Shown piece after piece: positions 966 to 27,700 of a stretch of DNA of 27,892 bases. Within the stretch, counting starts at the first letter, position 1, and each line of letters begins with the position of its first letter. Under the pieces are notes generated by a model. The model saw nothing but the letters and a program-made list of their open reading frames with translations. It was not told the origin of the DNA and searched no databases. Source of the stretch: a virus; IMG/VR virus record IMGVR_UViG_3300008267_000672, positions 1 through 27,892 of that record; one strand, written 5' to 3'. The position numbers and the translations under genes were made by a program.

Positions 966-2237
966 ATGTATCTAGTTAAAACGTCCCTCAACGGGGCACA
1001 ATTCTCTATTCAATTTGTTAAAGGACAAACTAACTCAGCTCCTGTTACGGTTGACGTTGACAATCATAACCTTAAGGGTGACTTTAAGATACTTACTAAA
1101 TTCCCGGTAGGTACTGTATTTGCAGTGACTGATATTGCATGGGGTGATGTATCCTCAGAAATCAAAGGTTCTGTACGCCCGCTGTTCTTCGAGGACAATA
1201 TCTATGCAATGTCTGTGCTACCTGCTGAAAACACCCCTACAAACGCAGACATTGATTATCTAATAGACTGGATGATCGCTAGTCCTGACTATACAGAAGA
1301 TGCCATTACTTCTTATGTAAACATCTTTGTAGGATATGGATACACTATCGATCTGAAGGCTAAATACAATGCTTACAAAACAGATACCTCTGGTACGTTG
1401 CGTGATCAAATCATCAGGATGCACCCATGTCCTACCATAGAGAAAACAGGATTCTATGTAGACCCTGAGCTATGGTATTTGCTTATCCGTAATGTACTGC
1501 GTGGTGAGAATACCCTGTTGATCGGACCTACAGGTTCAGGTAAGACCGAGATTATCAGTTTGATTGCAGAGTCTATGCAAAAAACACTGAACTATCAGGA
1601 TATGGGTACTGTACAGGACGCTCAGTCAGCTCTGCTCGGTGTGCACCGTCTTAACAAAGAAGGTCACTCATCGTTCGAGTATGCTCCATTTGTGTCTTAT
1701 GTACAACAACCCAACATTACCTTACTTGACGAGCTCAATCGTGCACCACTCTCAGCTTCTAATATCCTATTCCCATGTCTTGACAAGCGTAGGTATTTGC
1801 CTGTAGACATTGCATGCAGTGATTCTGATCGTAAGATTGCAGTGCATGAACAGTGTGTATTCTTTGCTACTGCTAACCTAGGTTCAGAATACAGCGGTAC
1901 TACTCAGATCGACCGTGCATTGCTAGATCGTTTCTTCCCCATCGAACTTAGCTATCCAACAGAAGACGCTGAGATCAAAGTATTAATGCTTCGCACTGGT
2001 GTTGATGAGAAAAATGCAAAAGCTATTGTCAAGGTAGGTAAAACTATTCGTGATCAATTCAAAGAGCAAGAGCTTAGTAATGTAGTATCAGTTCGTCATA
2101 CACTGACTGCAGCTAATCTGATCAAAGATGGTTTCGATACAGTCGGTGCTTTGATGAAGGTTATTATGCCTCTGTTTGATGACTCTAGTGGTGTATCTGA
2201 GCGTACTAAGGTGAAATCTATTATCGCAGCTAACTAA
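966..2237 (+). CDS. MoxR/CobS-like AAA+ ATPase, 423 aa
   Basis: The C-terminal two thirds is an AAA+ module of the MoxR/CobS/NorQ type. Visible are Walker A GPTGSGKT at residues 187-194, Walker B ITLLDELN at 251-258, sensor 1 FFATANLG at 299-306 and an arginine-finger-like DRALLDRF at 316-323. About 180 residues precede the ATPase and match nothing I know. Members of this group form ring ATPases that remodel a target together with a von Willebrand A partner, as CobS-CobT and RavA-ViaA do. The VWA partner gene is here too, two genes downstream, which strongly suggests a working pair. The target in this phage is unknown; a cobalt-chelatase role is not shown. The last base of its TAA is the A of the next ATG. 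Confidence 0.93.
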   Translation: MYLVKTSLNGAQFSIQFVKGQTNSAPVTVDVDNHNLKGDFKILTKFPVGTVFAVTDIAWGDVSSEIKGSVRPLFFEDNIYAMSVLPAENTPTNADIDYLIDWMIASPDYTEDAITSYVNIFVGYGYTIDLKAKYNAYKTDTSGTLRDQIIRMHPCPTIEKTGFYVDPELWYLLIRNVLRGENTLLIGPTGSGKTEIISLIAESMQKTLNYQDMGTVQDAQSALLGVHRLNKEGHSSFEYAPFVSYVQQPNITLLDELNRAPLSASNILFPCLDKRRYLPVDIACSDSDRKIAVHEQCVFFATANLGSEYSGTTQIDRALLDRFFPIELSYPTEDAEIKVLMLRTGVDEKNAKAIVKVGKTIRDQFKEQELSNVVSVRHTLTAANLIKDGFDTVGALMKVIMPLFDDSSGVSERTKVKSIIAAN

Positions 2238-2425
2238 TGATAACATTCACTAAGCTTAATGAAACAGATGATTCAGTGAGTGTAACAGTAGGAGATAAGA
2301 TGTTCATAATCATTAAACGTAATGATACCGGAATATCCATTGACTACTACAATTACACTCATTCTGATGAACCTCTTGAACCATTCAAATCAGATCAGAT
2401 TTGGTTTGATGATTTAACAGAATAA
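2237..2425 (+). CDS. Small acidic protein between the ATPase and VWA genes, 62 aa
   Basis: The start ATG shares one base with the TAA of the ATPase gene (TAATG), so translation is probably coupled. The product is acidic, predicted beta-rich at the N terminus (MITFTKLNETDDSVSVTVG), and ends FDDLTE. No known domain. Its place between the two members of a likely ATPase/VWA complex suggests an accessory or adaptor subunit, but nothing in the sequence proves that. Confidence 0.6.
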   Translation: MITFTKLNETDDSVSVTVGDKMFIIIKRNDTGISIDYYNYTHSDEPLEPFKSDQIWFDDLTE

Positions 2426-2430
2426 ACAAT

Positions 2431-4245
2431 ATGGCTTACTTCAGAGATTGGTTTGGTAGAGATGCCGACTATGGCTATACCTACTATGATCCCAAACGAC
2501 GCAGTGTCAACTGGGACAAAGGTTATACAAACTACAGCGACTTTATCTTCGGTTATGGGACTAAGTCTATTAAGACAGAGCAAGCTGCGCAATTGTTGAG
2601 CACCATGAGTCGGGTAATGGGAGTTACAACAGATAAGTTTAGCTCCTCTAGACGTGCAGATTCTGTGTTCATACCTACAAATATGCTCAAGGATCCATCT
2701 CTTCTAGATGCGTTTATCGGTGCATCGTTGCAGAATATGGCTGCTTATACTCATCAAAGTGATATAGAGCGAGAGCACATTCATGGTCTTGGTAGAGGTA
2801 GAGCATCATTGAATAAAACTGTTGCCAAGATTCTTAATCAAGAGCGTGTTGGTAAGCATATGTCTAAGGAAACTCCTGGTTATCTGAGATTCGTACAGAA
2901 ATACAAGGATCATGCTTATAGCAGTAGACCTGTGCCTAAGAATGACAATGAGCATTTGATAGAATTATTTGATCGTATCATTCGCTATCCTGATAAGATT
3001 ACAGAGGAAGAGCTTGAGAAGTTCAAAGATCCTATCAATGAAATCAAGACTGTTATTCAAAGCACAGGCGGTATCCCTGATGACTTCTCTGGCATGATTA
3101 AAACATCTAAGAAAATCACTACAATTCTTGAGAAATACATTGAGGAAATTCCACCCAAAGATGATAAAGACAGTAGTGATGACGGGGATGAAGGAGATGA
3201 ACCAGAAGATGAGTCATCAAAAAAGAGCAAAAGTCGAGCGTCCAAATCCGATGAGATTAGAGACTTTGCATCTAGTTTGTTTGACCATGTTGACGGTATA
3301 GACGGAGATGGTGAAACAGACGCAAGTAGCTCTTTCACAGAGTTTATGGAGTGTATTAAAGCTGATGAGGAATGTTCTCTTAAAGCAATTACCAAGGTAG
3401 ATTACATTACCATAGCTCCAACAACAAAATCTGAAAAAGCTTATGCAGAAGCAGTAGATAATATAGACATTACTGCAGCCAATGTTCTTGGTTCTTTACT
3501 GCGTCGTAAAAGCAGAGATTATCAGTTCCATCTGAAGTCTATGCGCAGTGGTCGTCTAGATACTGGTAAACTGGCTGAAGCTAAGCAAGGTGTACCTACT
3601 ATCTATGAGCGCATCGGTGAAGTAAAAACCAACAAACTCTGTGTTACCATCCTTGTTGACGAGAGTGGTAGTATGCATGATACAAAAGCAGATGCTGCTC
3701 GACAATCCGCTATCTTCTTAAATGAGGCTCTAAAGAATGTACCAGATGTTGAGTTATTCATTTATGGTCATACTGCAGACCTTGGTTCTGATTGCGACTT
3801 TAGGAGGTATGGTTTTAGTAAAAAGCCAAGCGGTAATGGTTCTACACAGCTGTTGATTTACAAAGAACCTGGTGTGCACAATAGTCATCAGCTCGGTCAC
3901 ATTAGCGGTAAATATGAGAATCGTGATGGTAGTGCGATGATTGCTGCTGCAAAACGAGTGAGAGGATTTACTCCTAGCAATGGTGTGTTCATAGTAATTA
4001 GCGACGGTTCTCCACATGCAAATGACTACCATGGTGATTCTGCACGTAAACACGTTCGCAAAATGGCTAATTCTATTGAGCAAATGGGTTTTCAGGTAAT
4101 CCAAGTTACTATCGGAGGATATCATAGTAGTGATATGTTTAAGACAGTAATTGATATGGATGATGTAGACACATTCCCGCGTGAGTTTGTCAACTTCCTC
4201 AAGAAGAAGATTAACACAATGATTAAAGAAAAAGTAACGCTGTAA
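2431..4245 (+). CDS. CobT-like von Willebrand factor A (VWA) protein, 604 aa
   Basis: The C-terminal 200 residues form a VWA domain with a complete MIDAS metal site: DESGS at 410-414, Thr448 in GHT, and Asp525 in VISDGS. Just before it stands SGRLDTGKLAEAK (373-385), the kind of Arg-Leu-Asp segment found ahead of the VWA in CobT proteins. Residues 244-275 are a very acidic then basic low-complexity linker, also typical of CobT. The N-terminal half (1-240) has no recognised domain. In CobS/CobT and related systems the VWA protein binds the substrate complex and the AAA+ ring drives change in it; the matching ATPase is encoded at 966-2237. The operon ends at a hairpin 5 nt downstream. Family assignment is firm for VWA and fair for CobT-like. 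Confidence 0.9.
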   Translation: MAYFRDWFGRDADYGYTYYDPKRRSVNWDKGYTNYSDFIFGYGTKSIKTEQAAQLLSTMSRVMGVTTDKFSSSRRADSVFIPTNMLKDPSLLDAFIGASLQNMAAYTHQSDIEREHIHGLGRGRASLNKTVAKILNQERVGKHMSKETPGYLRFVQKYKDHAYSSRPVPKNDNEHLIELFDRIIRYPDKITEEELEKFKDPINEIKTVIQSTGGIPDDFSGMIKTSKKITTILEKYIEEIPPKDDKDSSDDGDEGDEPEDESSKKSKSRASKSDEIRDFASSLFDHVDGIDGDGETDASSSFTEFMECIKADEECSLKAITKVDYITIAPTTKSEKAYAEAVDNIDITAANVLGSLLRRKSRDYQFHLKSMRSGRLDTGKLAEAKQGVPTIYERIGEVKTNKLCVTILVDESGSMHDTKADAARQSAIFLNEALKNVPDVELFIYGHTADLGSDCDFRRYGFSKKPSGNGSTQLLIYKEPGVHNSHQLGHISGKYENRDGSAMIAAAKRVRGFTPSNGVFIVISDGSPHANDYHGDSARKHVRKMANSIEQMGFQVIQVTIGGYHSSDMFKTVIDMDDVDTFPREFVNFLKKKINTMIKEKVTL

Positions 4246-23501: not shown

Positions 23502-24107
23502 ATGACAGACAACATTTGTATACCAGAATCTGCTCTAAGGAATCATCTGACCTTTAGAGATTGGTACAAAAAGGTCTCATATGAGATGTTCCAAGACCCG
23601 ACCAGCCCAGAACGATTTGATATAATATGGTCTGATGAGAACAGGTCAGACTATATTGAAACTATTATGAAGGAGGCAAACCTTATCTACTATGGTAAAT
23701 ATGAGCTTATAGACTATAAGACAAAGAACCGCAAGTTCAGCACTAGAAAAACCGATATAGTAGCAGCCACTTGCGTCATTATCCTTAATAACTTTAAGAT
23801 TACCTACACTAGATTAGCATCGTTCTTTGGTGTAAACCATGCCACGATGATCTACTATGTTAAAAGACACGCAAGTCATTGTGAGTCAAGAGATTACAGA
23901 AACAAATACATAAACCTATTAACACGTTTACAAAATGAGGGAATTATTCCACCTACTAAAAACAAAAGACATAACCCCCAACAGCTTGTATCTACTCTAC
24001 TGTCTCGAGTTGAATCTAAAGCTAGAGCTGCCAATAGCAGAGGCAACAGAGGTAAAAAGATTGCAGCTGCTGGGAATGTTAACAGCAAGTCTACAGCTCA
24101 CAAGTGA
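23502..24107 (+). CDS. DnaA domain IV-like DNA-binding protein, 201 aa
   Basis: Residues 80-123 match the C-terminal DNA-binding domain of DnaA: TRKTDIVAATCVIILNNF then SFFGVNHATMIYYVKRH, the equivalent of the signature GRDHSTVIHAV-type helix-turn-helix. There is no AAA+ ATPase part. It could recognise a phage origin or act as a transcription regulator. Its last 57 codons or so lie over the next gene in a different frame, and there the chain becomes basic and low-complexity (Arg/Lys/Ser/Ala/Asn), as expected for overprinting. It opens a plus-strand operon that includes the tmRNA. Confidence 0.8.
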   Translation: MTDNICIPESALRNHLTFRDWYKKVSYEMFQDPTSPERFDIIWSDENRSDYIETIMKEANLIYYGKYELIDYKTKNRKFSTRKTDIVAATCVIILNNFKITYTRLASFFGVNHATMIYYVKRHASHCESRDYRNKYINLLTRLQNEGIIPPTKNKRHNPQQLVSTLLSRVESKARAANSRGNRGKKIAAAGNVNSKSTAHK

Positions 24108-24531
24108 AGCGGAGTTGTTCATGCTGGAGGTTGATAAGATATTCTCCAAAGAAAAGAAGAAAGTGTCTGACGCTAGACTTGGGGGTGACTTTACAGAGAA
24201 TCTCCTAGCTTATCGAGATCTGTTTCCCACCTCTAAAGTTGCAGGTAAGCTGGTTAGAAACAGTGTGTCAGACCTTGAGCAGCGCATGGCTTGGTTTATG
24301 AAGACCTACCCTGAGTATACTTGGGAGAATATCTTTGGTGCTACAAGAAAGTATATCGAATCACACAACGGGGACTATAAGTACTGCATGACTTCAGCTT
24401 ATTTCATTAAAAAAGACGATAAGAACAAAGCTTCATTATCTTTGCTCTCATCATGGTGCGAGGCAGAACTGGAAGAGGACTCGCAAGAGTCTGCACCGCC
24501 AGTAATACTCGGCTTCAACAAGCTTATATAA
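23935..24531 (+). CDS. Hypothetical protein overlapping the DnaA-like gene, 198 aa
   Basis: The N terminus MRELFHLLKTKDITPNSLYLLYCLEL reads like a genuine folded start, and further on YPEYTWENIFGATRKYIESH and a SLLSSWCEAELEE end are patterned too. I recall a similar layout in other Bacteroidota phages but know no function. The first 173 nt overlap the DnaA-like gene in the +1 frame. A later start (codon 48, 24076) would cut this to 32 nt but would discard the patterned start. Alternatively a +1 frameshift could join the two. It ends just before a hairpin and the tmRNA. Confidence 0.72.
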   Translation: MRELFHLLKTKDITPNSLYLLYCLELNLKLELPIAEATEVKRLQLLGMLTASLQLTSEAELFMLEVDKIFSKEKKKVSDARLGGDFTENLLAYRDLFPTSKVAGKLVRNSVSDLEQRMAWFMKTYPEYTWENIFGATRKYIESHNGDYKYCMTSAYFIKKDDKNKASLSLLSSWCEAELEEDSQESAPPVILGFNKLI

Positions 24532-24536
24532 CAAAT

Positions 24537-24562
24537 ACCAGGGGGGATAACACCTCCCTGGT
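24537..24562 (+). terminator. Stable hairpin just before the tmRNA
   Basis: ACCAGGGGGG (24537-24546) pairs with CCTCCCTGGT (24553-24562) with one G-U, around a 6-nt loop. It lies 5 nt after the stop of the 198-aa gene and 12 nt before the tmRNA's first base. No T run follows, so it could be a weak terminator or a processing signal that shapes the tmRNA 5' end. Confidence 0.65.
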
Positions 24563-24574
24563 TAATCAAAAACT

Positions 24575-24878
24575 GGGTCCGACAGGAATCGACAGGATGG
24601 AGATTGGTAAACAATGCAGGTAGTGCTAGTTGGAAGCACTTAAAAATCCTAATAACACTACAAATGGCAATGAGTCAACCTTTACTTTCGAAGATGCAAT
24701 GAACTTTGTATCTATTGATGAGCTTGTAGCAGCGTAGTAACTACACGACTAAAGTGCCCCGTGGTTTCCTAGTTCCCTAAAAATTAGGTGGTGGAGTCAT
24801 TCTCCTAGTGCCCCTAAACCTGTGTATCGTTGCTTATTAACACATATCTGGACGTGGGTTCAATTCCCACCGGATCCA
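24575..24878 (+). ncRNA. ssrA: tmRNA, complete phage-encoded gene
   Basis: The tRNA-like ends pair: GGGTCCG (24575-24581) with CGGATCC (24871-24877). The single wobble is G3-U70, the identity signal for alanyl-tRNA synthetase, and the discriminator is A (24878). CCA is not encoded. The 5' side carries GGAATCGACAGG, the conserved D-loop-like block of tmRNAs. The T arm is perfect: stem GTGGG/CCCAC (24854-24858 with 24866-24870), loop TTCAATT. Helix 2 forms between GCAGGT (24616-24621) and ACCTGT near 24820. A pseudoknot-1-type hairpin AGTGCT/AGCACT is at 24622-24640. The product would rescue ribosomes stalled on truncated mRNA and tag the proteins for proteolysis. Length 304 nt is slightly below the common 350. 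Confidence 0.93.
24666..24740 (+). other. tmRNA tag-peptide reading frame
   Basis: Reading from a GGC resume codon, the frame gives GNESTFTF, then EDAMNFV, then SIDELVAA, then TAG TAA. That is 23 encoded residues plus the alanine carried by tmRNA itself. It ends in the small hydrophobic VAA that ClpX-type proteases recognise. The resume codon is inferred from the tandem stops and the Bacteroidota habit of a Gly-first tag; the GCA at 24667 would give a stop after 11 codons and no sensible degron. Tags in free-living Bacteroidota usually are near 10 residues, so this is long. Confidence 0.8.
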
Positions 24879-24885
24879 CAAAGTC

Positions 24886-25166: not shown

Positions 25167-25355
25167 TCAATGCTCTCCTACGTGACAAGGATAAACCTTA
25201 GCAGCAGGATTATTATTTACCATTACACCTTTGCTACCAGGTACAGTTTGTACTGATACCTTAGCATTCAGTCCTACATAGGTACCCTTGCTACCAGGTA
25301 CTTTCTGTACCTGAGCTGCGGGATTTGGATTGTTGAGTTTTCCAGTCTTTCCCAT
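25167..25355 (-). CDS. Small repeat protein, 62 aa
   Basis: The sequence has two near-copies of a short pattern: NPNPAAQVQKVPGSKG and, later, VSVQTVPGSKG followed by NNPAAKV. VPGSKG occurs twice and NPAA-x-V twice. The repeats and small size suggest a surface or decoration protein, but no family is known. It is the last gene of the minus-strand chain of small proteins, and its start is 2 nt after the stop of the gene at 25358. The ATG at 25355 follows an A/T-rich leader. Confidence 0.65.
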   Translation of the reverse strand: MGKTGKLNNPNPAAQVQKVPGSKGTYVGLNAKVSVQTVPGSKGVMVNNNPAAKVYPCHVGEH

Positions 25356-25357
25356 GA

Positions 25358-25492
25358 TTACATACCTTTTTTCATTTTACTTTTCTTCATGCCACCTTTT
25401 TTCATAGGTGTGGCTTTAGCAGGAGCATTAGGTCCTTTAACTTGGATTTTACCAGCAGCTCCGCCAGTTCCCATTTTACCCATCTTTTTCAT
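25358..25492 (-). CDS. Small Lys/Gly/Met-rich protein, 44 aa
   Basis: Begins MKKMGKMGTGGAAGKIQV and ends KKGGMKKSKMKKGM. It is strongly basic and full of KKGG-type steps, like its neighbours at 25495 and 26682. The compact spacing (2 nt on both sides) and the shared composition support a real gene despite its size. Such peptides may coat DNA or lie inside the capsid; that is inference. Confidence 0.62.
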   Translation of the reverse strand: MKKMGKMGTGGAAGKIQVKGPNAPAKATPMKKGGMKKSKMKKGM

Positions 25493-25494
25493 GC

Positions 25495-25641
25495 TTATTT
25501 CTTTTTAGATTTAGTCATACCACCTTTCTTGTAACCGGTGCCACCAGACATCATCTTCTTAGCACCTGCTTTGCCACCTTTTTTCATGTACTGAGCGTTT
25601 TCTCCTGTGCCCATGCCAGCTTTTCCTTTGGTCATTCCCAT
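25495..25641 (-). CDS. Small Lys/Gly-rich protein, 48 aa
   Basis: Begins MGMTKGKAGMGTGENAQYMK and ends GGMTKSKKK. It shares KKGG and MGTG pieces with the 44-aa gene directly downstream, so the two are probably tandem duplicates. Strongly basic, no Cys, no membrane part. The gap to its neighbour is 2 nt. No known family name; function unclear. Confidence 0.62.
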   Translation of the reverse strand: MGMTKGKAGMGTGENAQYMKKGGKAGAKKMMSGGTGYKKGGMTKSKKK

Positions 25642-25652
25642 TGTTTTAAGTT

Positions 25653-25940
25653 TTATTGGTTAGAGTTAATGTCAGCTAATACGCTTAGCTTATATTTTAT
25701 GTTGTTTAACTGAGACTTTAGTACTTCAATCTCTGCTTTCTGACTTTCTATTTGCAGAAGCATCATGCTATCGTTTTGTAAAGCCTCTTCAAATCTGACT
25801 GCAGTTAGGCTATCTAGAGTAACCTGGTGCTCAATTTTTTTAATTGTGCTATTGTCTTGGAACTCCATAACCTTACCAGCCATACCAATCATCATTCCAA
25901 GTACAGCAATGACAATGATTACTACTCCAAACCTACTCAT
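25653..25940 (-). CDS. Membrane-anchored coiled-coil protein, 95 aa
   Basis: One N-terminal membrane segment (VVIIVIAVLGMMIGMAGKVM, about 6-25) is followed by a long helical, coiled-coil-like stretch (LLQIESQKAEIEVLKSQLNN). It could be an i-spanin-like or phage lysis accessory protein; there is no proof. It overlaps the holin-like gene before it by 8 nt, so it belongs to the same translational unit as the second lysis set. There is no lipobox. Confidence 0.65.
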   Translation of the reverse strand: MSRFGVVIIVIAVLGMMIGMAGKVMEFQDNSTIKKIEHQVTLDSLTAVRFEEALQNDSMMLLQIESQKAEIEVLKSQLNNIKYKLSVLADINSNQ

Positions 25941-26205
25941 GACTAGATTCTAATTGTTTAATTTTTTCTTCTAACTCCTTGTTCTTTCGAGAAAGCTCAT
26001 CTAACATAAGAGATTCATCCCCGGTAATCTTCTTAAGGGATCCAGACATTGCACCAAATAGAACAGAAACAAATGCAATCAATAGTTCACGATTAGTGGA
26101 TGGCATCTCTGTGCTCATCAGCATCATAAAGATGCCAATAGCCACAGCTAACACCAAAAGACTACCTAAGAAATTAATTAGTTTATCAGTATTTGTCGTA
26201 CTCAT
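25933..26205 (-). CDS. Holin-like protein with coiled coil, 90 aa
   Basis: Two likely membrane segments: FLGSLLVLAVAIGIFMMLM (about 12-30) and LLIAFVSVLFGAMSG (about 41-55), then a charged coiled coil ending ELEEKIKQLESSHE. The pattern FLGSLLVLAV then NRELLIAFVSVLFGAMSGSL is familiar from Bacteroidota-phage holin-like proteins, by memory. It lies next to the M15 endolysin, so it most likely times its release. It overlaps that gene by 20 nt. Confidence 0.72.
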   Translation of the reverse strand: MSTTNTDKLINFLGSLLVLAVAIGIFMMLMSTEMPSTNRELLIAFVSVLFGAMSGSLKKITGDESLMLDELSRKNKELEEKIKQLESSHE

Positions 26206-26680
26206 TGGTCGGATCGAAATCAGTTACAGGTTTATATACAGTCTTGCTACCATCTTTCAGAGCTACCAGCTTCTGCTTGCGGTTACCAGTCTTCTTGACT
26301 GAAGCATGTACCCATCCAGAGTTAGCTCCTTCAGCTGGGTTATAGAACTCCAGGATAACCTGGTCGAATTCTACATTCTCAGATACCCAATCAGCGAGGA
26401 TTTTATTAGTAACTCCAGTGATTTCAAAATCAACAGCTTCACCGTTCATATGCTGCGAGGTAGTACTCCCACCGATAGCTTTATTAAGAGCAGGTCCTCT
26501 GTAGCAACTATTCACCGTCACTGGTTTTCCAAAGTGTGCTCGAGCAGGTTCCAAGATCTTCTCGCATACACGCTTCATATTCTCCAGATGTTCGGGAGTA
26601 GGAGTATTATCGATGCCAAGTTTGGTAGCAGTGGGAGACTCGGTGAGCTCCTTTAGTGTAAAGTTTGGTGTAATCTTCAT
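26186..26680 (-). CDS. Peptidase M15 endolysin, 164 aa
   Basis: Zinc peptidase of the M15A (D-Ala-D-Ala carboxypeptidase/L-Ala-D-Glu) group: SCYRGPALNKAIGG (58-71), zinc ligands His77 and Asp84 in SQHMNGEAVDFE, and His125 in SGWVHAS. It would cut peptidoglycan cross-links in lysis. The frame opens at 26746, but the Met at 26680 (MKITPNFTLKELTES) is right: the N-terminal FTLKELTES motif is typical and the upstream part would run over the neighbouring gene. No signal peptide, so release depends on the adjacent holin-like protein. Confidence 0.88.
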   Translation of the reverse strand: MKITPNFTLKELTESPTATKLGIDNTPTPEHLENMKRVCEKILEPARAHFGKPVTVNSCYRGPALNKAIGGSTTSQHMNGEAVDFEITGVTNKILADWVSENVEFDQVILEFYNPAEGANSGWVHASVKKTGNRKQKLVALKDGSKTVYKPVTDFDPTNEYDKY

Positions 26681-26681
26681 G

Positions 26682-27206
26682 TTATTTCTTCTTTTTAGCA
26701 GAACCACCTTTCTTGAAGACACCTCTACCTTTGAGGACATCTGCACGAGTTACCTTACCATCACCAGTGAGGTCAGGGAAAGTAGATCCGCCACTCTTGT
26801 ACTTACGAGTAGTACCTCCAGCTCTATTTACACTACGCGGAGCTGTTAGAGGTAGTTTAAAGTTACTCATGTTCTTGCGGTTCTCATAATCTATCTGATT
26901 CTGTTTTGCTTTGTCATAAGCTTCTTCAGATCCAGGATTTTTGGGAGACATTTTGCTAAGAGCCTCTCTGGTTTTCTGAGCATAAATTCCAGTACTATCT
27001 GCTACTTGCTTACCAGCTTGGTACTTCTTTACCTTACCACCAGCTTTGTACATAGCATAGTTGCTCATTGTATCTCCTGAGATAGCTTCGTTGTACTTAC
27101 GACGGTTCATTACCCCACGCTTGGGGATGCCAGCAGTGGCTGCTGTAGTTTTCTTAGCCGGTTTCTTAGCAGGTTTAGCTTTAGTTTTTCCTTTGTTTAG
27201 TGACAT
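26682..27206 (-). CDS. Basic phage protein with EF-hand-like loop, 174 aa
   Basis: The N terminus is Lys/Ala-rich (KAKPAKKPAKK near 9-19), the middle has KAGGKVKKYQAGK and KYKSGG, and the C terminus carries a single calcium-loop-like DLTGDGKVTRAD (145-156) with Asp1, Thr3, Asp5, Gly6 and Asp12, as in dockerin or EF-hand loops, followed by a KKGG...KKKK tail. This loop context (TGDGKVT then GRGV) recurs in small phage proteins, from memory. Possibly a virion-internal or scaffold-like protein. It lies 1 nt upstream of the endolysin gene and 2 nt below the next. Confidence 0.72.
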   Translation of the reverse strand: MSLNKGKTKAKPAKKPAKKTTAATAGIPKRGVMNRRKYNEAISGDTMSNYAMYKAGGKVKKYQAGKQVADSTGIYAQKTREALSKMSPKNPGSEEAYDKAKQNQIDYENRKNMSNFKLPLTAPRSVNRAGGTTRKYKSGGSTFPDLTGDGKVTRADVLKGRGVFKKGGSAKKKK

Positions 27207-27208
27207 GA

Positions 27209-27400
27209 TTATTTCTTTTTACGCATTTTAGATAATGTTTGAGCAAGTGCTGCTTGACGCTTAGTGCGGGTACTAGCTTTACTACCTTCTGCTAATACAG
27301 ATTTAGCATACCCAGCCACAGATTTACCAGCAGCTTTGGCTTTCTTGGTAAAAGCACCTGGACGCTTGATAGCTTTTTGGATCCACTTTTTTTCTGCCAT
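27209..27400 (-). CDS. Small basic phage protein, 63 aa
   Basis: Starts MAEKKWIQKAIKRPGAFTKK and ends LAQTLSKMRKKK. The KKWIQKAI-K-PG start and the R...LAQTL-KMRKKK end form a recognisable small phage protein seen in many virion-gene neighbourhoods, by recollection. Strongly basic, with no membrane part. It could bind DNA or pack inside the head. Co-transcribed with its neighbours (gaps 2 and 18 nt). Confidence 0.7.
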   Translation of the reverse strand: MAEKKWIQKAIKRPGAFTKKAKAAGKSVAGYAKSVLAEGSKASTRTKRQAALAQTLSKMRKKK

Positions 27401-27418
27401 GGTTTTATAATATTAAAG

Positions 27419-27700
27419 TTAGCAATTCCATTTACGCAGAGACTTATTGATCCTGCTATTAGGATCATTCGCTGTCTTAGCTGAGGTGAGCTTAGCTTTC
27501 ATACCCTTCATCCTACTACAGAATGACTTGCGTCTCTTAGCATCTTTGCTTCCAGCTTTGATCTTACTGGGTTTAGTAGTGACTGCAGTCTGTAGTTTAG
27601 ACCCAGGATTAGCTCTACGGTAGGATGCTACACCTTTAGCATTAAGTCCTCCCTTAGGATCCTTACCTTCTTTGCGAGTCCAAGCTGGTGATTTAGCCAT
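27419..27700 (-). CDS. DUF6321-like small basic protein, 93 aa
   Basis: PAWTRKEGKDPKGGLNAKG (5-23) and KRRKSFCSRMKGMKAKL (about 56-72) are the hallmark segments of the DUF6321 group that I recall from phages and large viruses. The end, KSLRKWNC, holds a second Cys after Trp; with Cys62 it could form a bond or bind metal. Strongly basic. Function unknown; it is thought to be a virion or nucleic-acid-associated protein only by context. Confidence 0.73.
   Translation of the reverse strand: MAKSPAWTRKEGKDPKGGLNAKGVASYRRANPGSKLQTAVTTKPSKIKAGSKDAKRRKSFCSRMKGMKAKLTSAKTANDPNSRINKSLRKWNC

Follow-up and report, generated by a model that had tools for sequence, protein, structure and literature searches.

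The window, a 27,892-base IMG/VR virus record (IMGVR_UViG_3300008267_000672; a 27.9-kb fragment), carries a tmRNA gene whose peptide tag includes a module that many phages have conserved and that bacteria lack. This tag is the unusual part of the gene. The window tmRNA belongs to an apparently undescribed, virus-only branch. We consider it probable that the gene serves a working phage trans-translation system with a bipartite tag, in which the conserved module is joined to a Clp-type degron.

ARAGORN called a single tmRNA in the window, with the limits and tag given in Table 1. The Rfam model RF00023 matched positions 24575-24881 over its full length (model 1-374) with 83 bits (E 4.7e-31), and the gathering score of this model is 47 bits. 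The original prediction of a tmRNA was thus borne out by both methods. Its account of the acceptor stem also held, because all seven pairs of GGGTCCG/CGGATCC form and G3-U70 is the sole wobble. The T stem is fully paired, and the tRNA-like domain has no anticodon arm. The other predicted elements, namely, the D-loop-like block (GGAATCGAC), helix 2, a PK1-type element, and the tandem stops TAG TAA, were all seen. The tag had been described as long, and it has 23 residues with a hydrophobic, alanine-rich end (LVAA).

The gene had also been called complete. This held for the acceptor, T arm, PK1, and tag, but was too strong for the PK2-PK4 region after the tag, most of which is missing. Owing to this loss, no other member of the family has so short a gene (approximately 305 bases in the window versus 369-464 in 57 relatives). 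The CCA is not encoded; the 3' end reads ACAA, and position 24878, originally given as the end of the gene, is the discriminator base A73. The pseudoknots of tmRNA "typically number four" (PMC11915505); therefore, a smaller number is compatible with membership. The predicted pseudoknot-free folding energy was ordinary relative to shuffled sequences (z -1.44), so that the evidence for the RNA rests on the covariance-model match and on conservation.

Table 1. Features of the tmRNA gene in the window
Feature	Position	Strand	Basis
tmRNA (ssrA) gene, one-piece, ~305 bases	24575..24879	+	ARAGORN; RF00023
Acceptor stem, 5' strand GGGTCCG, including G3 of the alanine G3-U70	24575..24581	+	7/7 pairs with 24871-24877
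D-loop-like block ACAGGAATCGAC	24582..24593	+	agrees with RF00023 consensus
PK1-type element, AGTGC/GCACT stem and second strand	24622..24652	+	aligned to RF00023 PK1; limits approximate, by eye
Tag frame GNESTFTFEDAMNFVSIDELVAA, then TAG TAA	24666..24740	+	ARAGORN; predicted resume codon GGC
Conserved phage tag module STFTFEDAMNFV	24675..24710	+	core common to 72 IMG/VR tmRNAs; 0 in 84,980 genomes
H5-type RNA hairpin (24688-24699 with 24706-24718), overlapping the module	24688..24718	+	predicted fold; relatives form alternative hairpins there
C-terminal LVAA, degron-like, cf. host ALAA	24723..24734	+	A[VLI]AA-type ends in nearly all STxTFEDAM members
T arm GTGGGTTCAATTCCCAC	24854..24870	+	stem pairs 5/5
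Acceptor stem, 3' strand CGGATCC, and discriminator A	24871..24878	+	sequence, pairing

The phage genes of the window include a DNA polymerase, a DnaB-like helicase, a Sak4-like annealing protein, and an endolysin (replication and lysis). An SmpB gene was not found in the 27.9-kb window. An inverted repeat (CCAGGGGGG...CCTCCCTGG) without a T run lies just 5' of the tmRNA (24540-24563) and may be a terminator, processing site, or operator. At 966-4245, a MoxR/CobS-like AAA ATPase precedes a protein of the VWA type that by eye is CobT-like. An ORF at 23502-24107 has a helix-turn-helix similar to DnaA domain IV by eye, and its overlap with the following ORF (23935-24531) exceeds 170 bases. A series of small lysine-rich ORFs on the minus strand (25167-27700) may encode virion DNA-packing proteins. 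No relative of the ORF upstream of the tmRNA was found.

The distribution of the module was examined with a DNA pattern for STxTFEDAM. In IMG/VR, the pattern occurred on 72 viral contigs, in every case within a short tag-like frame. The frame reached a stop 19-21 codons on in 71 of the 72, mostly after A[VLI]AA, and the last was cut by the end of its contig. Across 84,980 prokaryote genomes (257 Gb), the same pattern was absent. As approximately two chance matches were to be expected in a collection of this size, estimated from the information content of the pattern, there is no sign of the module in bacteria. A relaxed pattern also gave no match in 395 Bacteroidota genomes. The full acceptor stem was resolved in 57 relatives and the window, and all 58 keep the seven pairs with G3-U70. 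The carrier contigs are up to 294 kb in length, and a terminase match was present in 24 of the 48 carrier and related records examined. Two pairs of records with the same tmRNA and SmpB differ greatly in length (L223/L245, 134/254 kb; L227/L263, 129/294 kb) and are probably overlapping assemblies.

Other searches extended this picture. The VELSDMTFEDAVEFV tags (VELSDMTF family) form a group related to the STxTFEDAM family. An untargeted scan of IMG/VR with a T-arm pattern recovered more tmRNAs, three of which have window-like tags (L109, L138, and L178), and an exact tmRNA pattern built from the window had no match in IMG/VR. Of 50 records encoding a DNA polymerase related to that of the window, three gave a tmRNA match above the cut-off. 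Their tags are long (27, 27, and approximately 37 residues); two were read by eye as ARAGORN missed those tmRNAs. One tmRNA that ARAGORN missed, in a polymerase relative (L080, 1501-1889), is divergent, with an unusual D-loop block and an apparent 37-residue tag (GNNDSSLGLVQDVKFAMSHNLLSGVYVGNPVGELELV). In several members of the STxTFEDAM family (L085, L203, L205, L215, and L222), ARAGORN placed the start of the tag too late (e.g., AEYAVAA), and annotated phage tag lengths are therefore underestimates. A tblastn search of annotated phages and plasmids with the tag returned nothing, which is uninformative because a control with the Bxz1 tag also failed.

We examined whether the module is maintained as a peptide or as RNA. 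In the STxTFEDAM family, selection was counted on codons outside the search pattern (codons 10-20), and pS was 0.44 and pN was 0.16 (pN/pS 0.37). The ratio was 0.30-0.46 between the STxTFEDAM and VELSDMTF families and 0.50 in the AQIEANM family described below. As simple counts on related sequences, these values show a direction and are not a test with a p-value. On these counts, the codons of the tag are under purifying selection. However, the tmRNA may work with the module kept only as RNA, such that H5 lies in these codons, the longer peptide is a by-product, and only the AxAA end matters. Predicted hairpins overlapped TFEDAMxFV in all 40 distinct sequences examined, and part of the conservation may thus serve RNA structure. 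There are two main alternative pairings, one with Ser10 and the other with Ala10, and the codon use fits them: Ser10 is always TCT and Ala10 is nearly always GCA. These pairings account for the alternation between Ser and Ala, but not for the constancy of the remaining peptide. The same FEDAM[SA]F is encoded by two different hairpins, and a constraint on RNA only would let the peptide change along with the pairing. Furthermore, F11 and V12 are invariant as residues while their codons vary, and the VELS part, which is outside H5, is kept as a peptide with silent changes between families. Within the STxTFEDAM family, the VEL codons are nearly invariant at the DNA level, which counts against the bipartite-tag explanation. 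RNA and peptide constraints probably both act on the module, and we regard a module kept purely for its RNA, the main alternative, as unlikely.

Another explanation is that the window tmRNA inhibits host trans-translation by competing for SmpB. A phage precedent exists in mycobacteriophage DS6A, for whose tRNA-like-only form such competition was suggested (PMC4131195, PMC11915505), and the reduced PK2-PK4 region of the window copy is in line with it. However, a competitor has no need of a long, selected reading frame that ends in tandem stops, and we consider this role improbable.

The phylogeny was examined with trees built without the tag from 44 STxTFEDAM-family tmRNAs, including the window, and 44 bacterial tmRNAs. 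All 44 family members grouped together (support 0.94-0.96), with the window inside and the bacterial tmRNAs outside. The comparison with Bacteroidota ssrA genes suggested in the original prediction thus places the window with phage tmRNAs. Its view that the gene is not decayed was also supported, as the window tmRNA sits in an old, phage-only clade with conserved features. A search of 44 other carrier contigs for the DNA polymerase of the window, made without a positive control, gave no match. An old phage tmRNA lineage that has been passed between different phage groups is the simplest reading. The resume codon and C-terminal end resemble those of Bacteroidota host tags, but a tmRNA recently taken from the host, without a special role and retained either by chance or as a backup that sustains translation, is very improbable. 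Recent capture was rejected on the tag-free tree and chance or decay on conservation across the family, and the window tag is unlike all bacterial tags sampled.

The host setting, as judged from sequence, is Bacteroidota. Bacteroidota-type promoters (TTG, spacer, TAnnTTTG) were present 5' of 8 of the 44 family tmRNAs, and in 6 of these 8 cases TAnnTTTG lies 26-28 bases before the gene. Of 48 records, four carrier records encode SmpB; the closest matches of one phage SmpB searched against genomes were Bacteroidales proteins (53-56% identical). On the contig of L223, a carrier phage has a row of genes (L270, 31-3071) that comprises a TROVE/VWA-like gene, judged Ro60-like by eye, SmpB, a small gene, and a CCA-adding-enzyme-like gene. 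Since the tmRNA of this contig does not encode its CCA, this phage may complete its tmRNA itself and then use it. A GTTCTTT/GTTATTT...AT leader directly 5' of five tmRNAs (L205, L208, L210, L265, and L268) is similar to the boxA-like leaders found in rRNA operons of Bacteroidota.

In the trans-translation system that we favor, host alanyl-tRNA synthetase would charge the window tmRNA through G3-U70 and A73. Host EF-Tu and host SmpB would accept the charged RNA, and SmpB would carry it into ribosomes stalled on broken mRNA, where the 23-residue, two-part tag would be added to the stalled peptide. The tag would comprise a module of approximately 12-15 residues, [VEL/EK]STxTFEDAMxFV, joined through a short linker to an A[VLI]AA end of the host type. 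This end most likely keeps a Clp-type degradation signal; the LVAA of the window is compatible with a ClpX-type ssrA degron. The module is most likely a second docking site for a protease, adaptor, or other partner of the host or phage, and proteins rescued in infected cells would be handled differently from those with the 9-10-residue host tag. We infer the expression, charging, and degradation, as well as the existence and nature of a partner for the module.

Candidate partners were sought in phages and hosts. Beside the tmRNA, no cluster of neighboring genes was common to more than 12 of approximately 80 loci, a point against the system that we favor. SspB (PF04386), the tag adaptor of E. 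coli, was detected in both controls, E. coli and Caulobacter, and in none of 41 Bacteroidota genomes. On the basis of these 41 genomes, host SspB was rejected as the partner, which would be something else. ClpP-family genes were present in 11 of 48 records. These genes are common in phages as head-maturation proteases; therefore, their presence is uninformative on the partner. Published suggestions for the role of phage tmRNA are general, namely, that it maintains hijacked translation or recycles host proteins (PMC9004378). A tag module found in many phages and absent from bacteria offers a concrete handle because a short peptide may be used to pull down the partner, and its effect on degradation is measurable. 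If the module does redirect rescued proteins, the virus would have taken over protein quality control.

Long tags with conserved modules were also found in other phages. Most of 69 matches to a pattern for AQIEANM were tags, and a few were ordinary long proteins. The front of these tags is conserved, the linker varies in length, and the end is usually AA; a two-part tag predicts this layout. Cellulophaga phages phi40:1 and Calle carry the tag AQIEANMEAVNAILNLEVAVGV, and a 72,534-base record, taken as Cellulophaga phage phi38:1, also matches the pattern. Phages phi38:1 and Calle are cultured systems for this tag family. TFDFSAMSF tags occur in the permuted tmRNAs of T4-like phages (91 contigs, with an ARAGORN tmRNA in 73 of the 80 read) and mostly end in ALAA. 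The neighbors of these tmRNAs include ribonucleotide reductase and endolysin genes. The similarity of the TFEDAM and TFDFSAMSF modules, seen in the likeness between TFDFSAMSF and TFTFEDAMSF (shuffle p ~0.003 for the closest pair), is no more than suggestive. We consider it quite possible that phages repeatedly evolved two-part tags, with a module of their own before a host-type degron, that redirect rescued proteins to another protease, adaptor, or compartment. TFEDAM, AQIEANM, and TFDFSAMSF would then be independent or laterally shared cases.

Phage tmRNAs were reported in 402 of 18,146 phage genomes (PMC9004378), and a tmRNA database holds 79 unique phage sequences (PMC11915505). Named carriers include mycobacteriophages and Bacillus phage G (PMC4131195), Cellulophaga phage Calle (PMC8776804), and huge phages (PMC7162821). 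In view of these counts and of isolated Bacteroidota phages with a tmRNA (PMC8776804), the original description of a phage-borne ssrA as rare was too strong.

The bacterial tmRNAs of Bacteroidota (RF00023) share with the window the one-piece form, tRNA-like domain, PK1, and an AxAA-like tag end (ALAA, AMAA, or RLAA in these hosts). The resume codon is GGC in the window and in nearly all of the first 14 of these bacterial tmRNAs, and GAC or GCA in other phages. However, the bacterial tags are short and without the module, with 8-10 residues in 43 of 44 (e.g., GENNYALAA and ANDYSYAMAA); the lone exception appears to be an ARAGORN misreading. Compared with a host tag, the phage tag appears to carry an insertion of approximately 13 conserved residues ahead of the host-like end. 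Cellulophaga phages phi38:1, phi40:1, and Calle, the last with an annotated tmRNA (PMC8776804), are Bacteroidota phages that also have a one-piece tmRNA with a long conserved tag, but their tag represents a separate family and their tmRNAs a separate clade. The crAss-like phages cr7_1, cr124_1, and cr50_1 are Bacteroidota gut phages with annotated tmRNAs; however, these are permuted according to ARAGORN and have 13-residue tags without the module. A misreading as permuted was rejected because no full 5' acceptor partner was present upstream in the stretch scanned, and the call stands. Aquatic phages also encode permuted tmRNAs, OM43 phage Melnitz being an example (PMC9004378), but these have the two-piece form. 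The tmRNAs of the mycobacteriophage Bxz1 type and Bacillus phage G (PMC4131195) are likewise phage-encoded, in other hosts. A conserved phage tag module was not found in the literature searched on phage tmRNAs, which consisted mostly of non-subscription papers. Phage tmRNAs in themselves are already known and not very rare, and we provisionally regard the conserved tag module as new.
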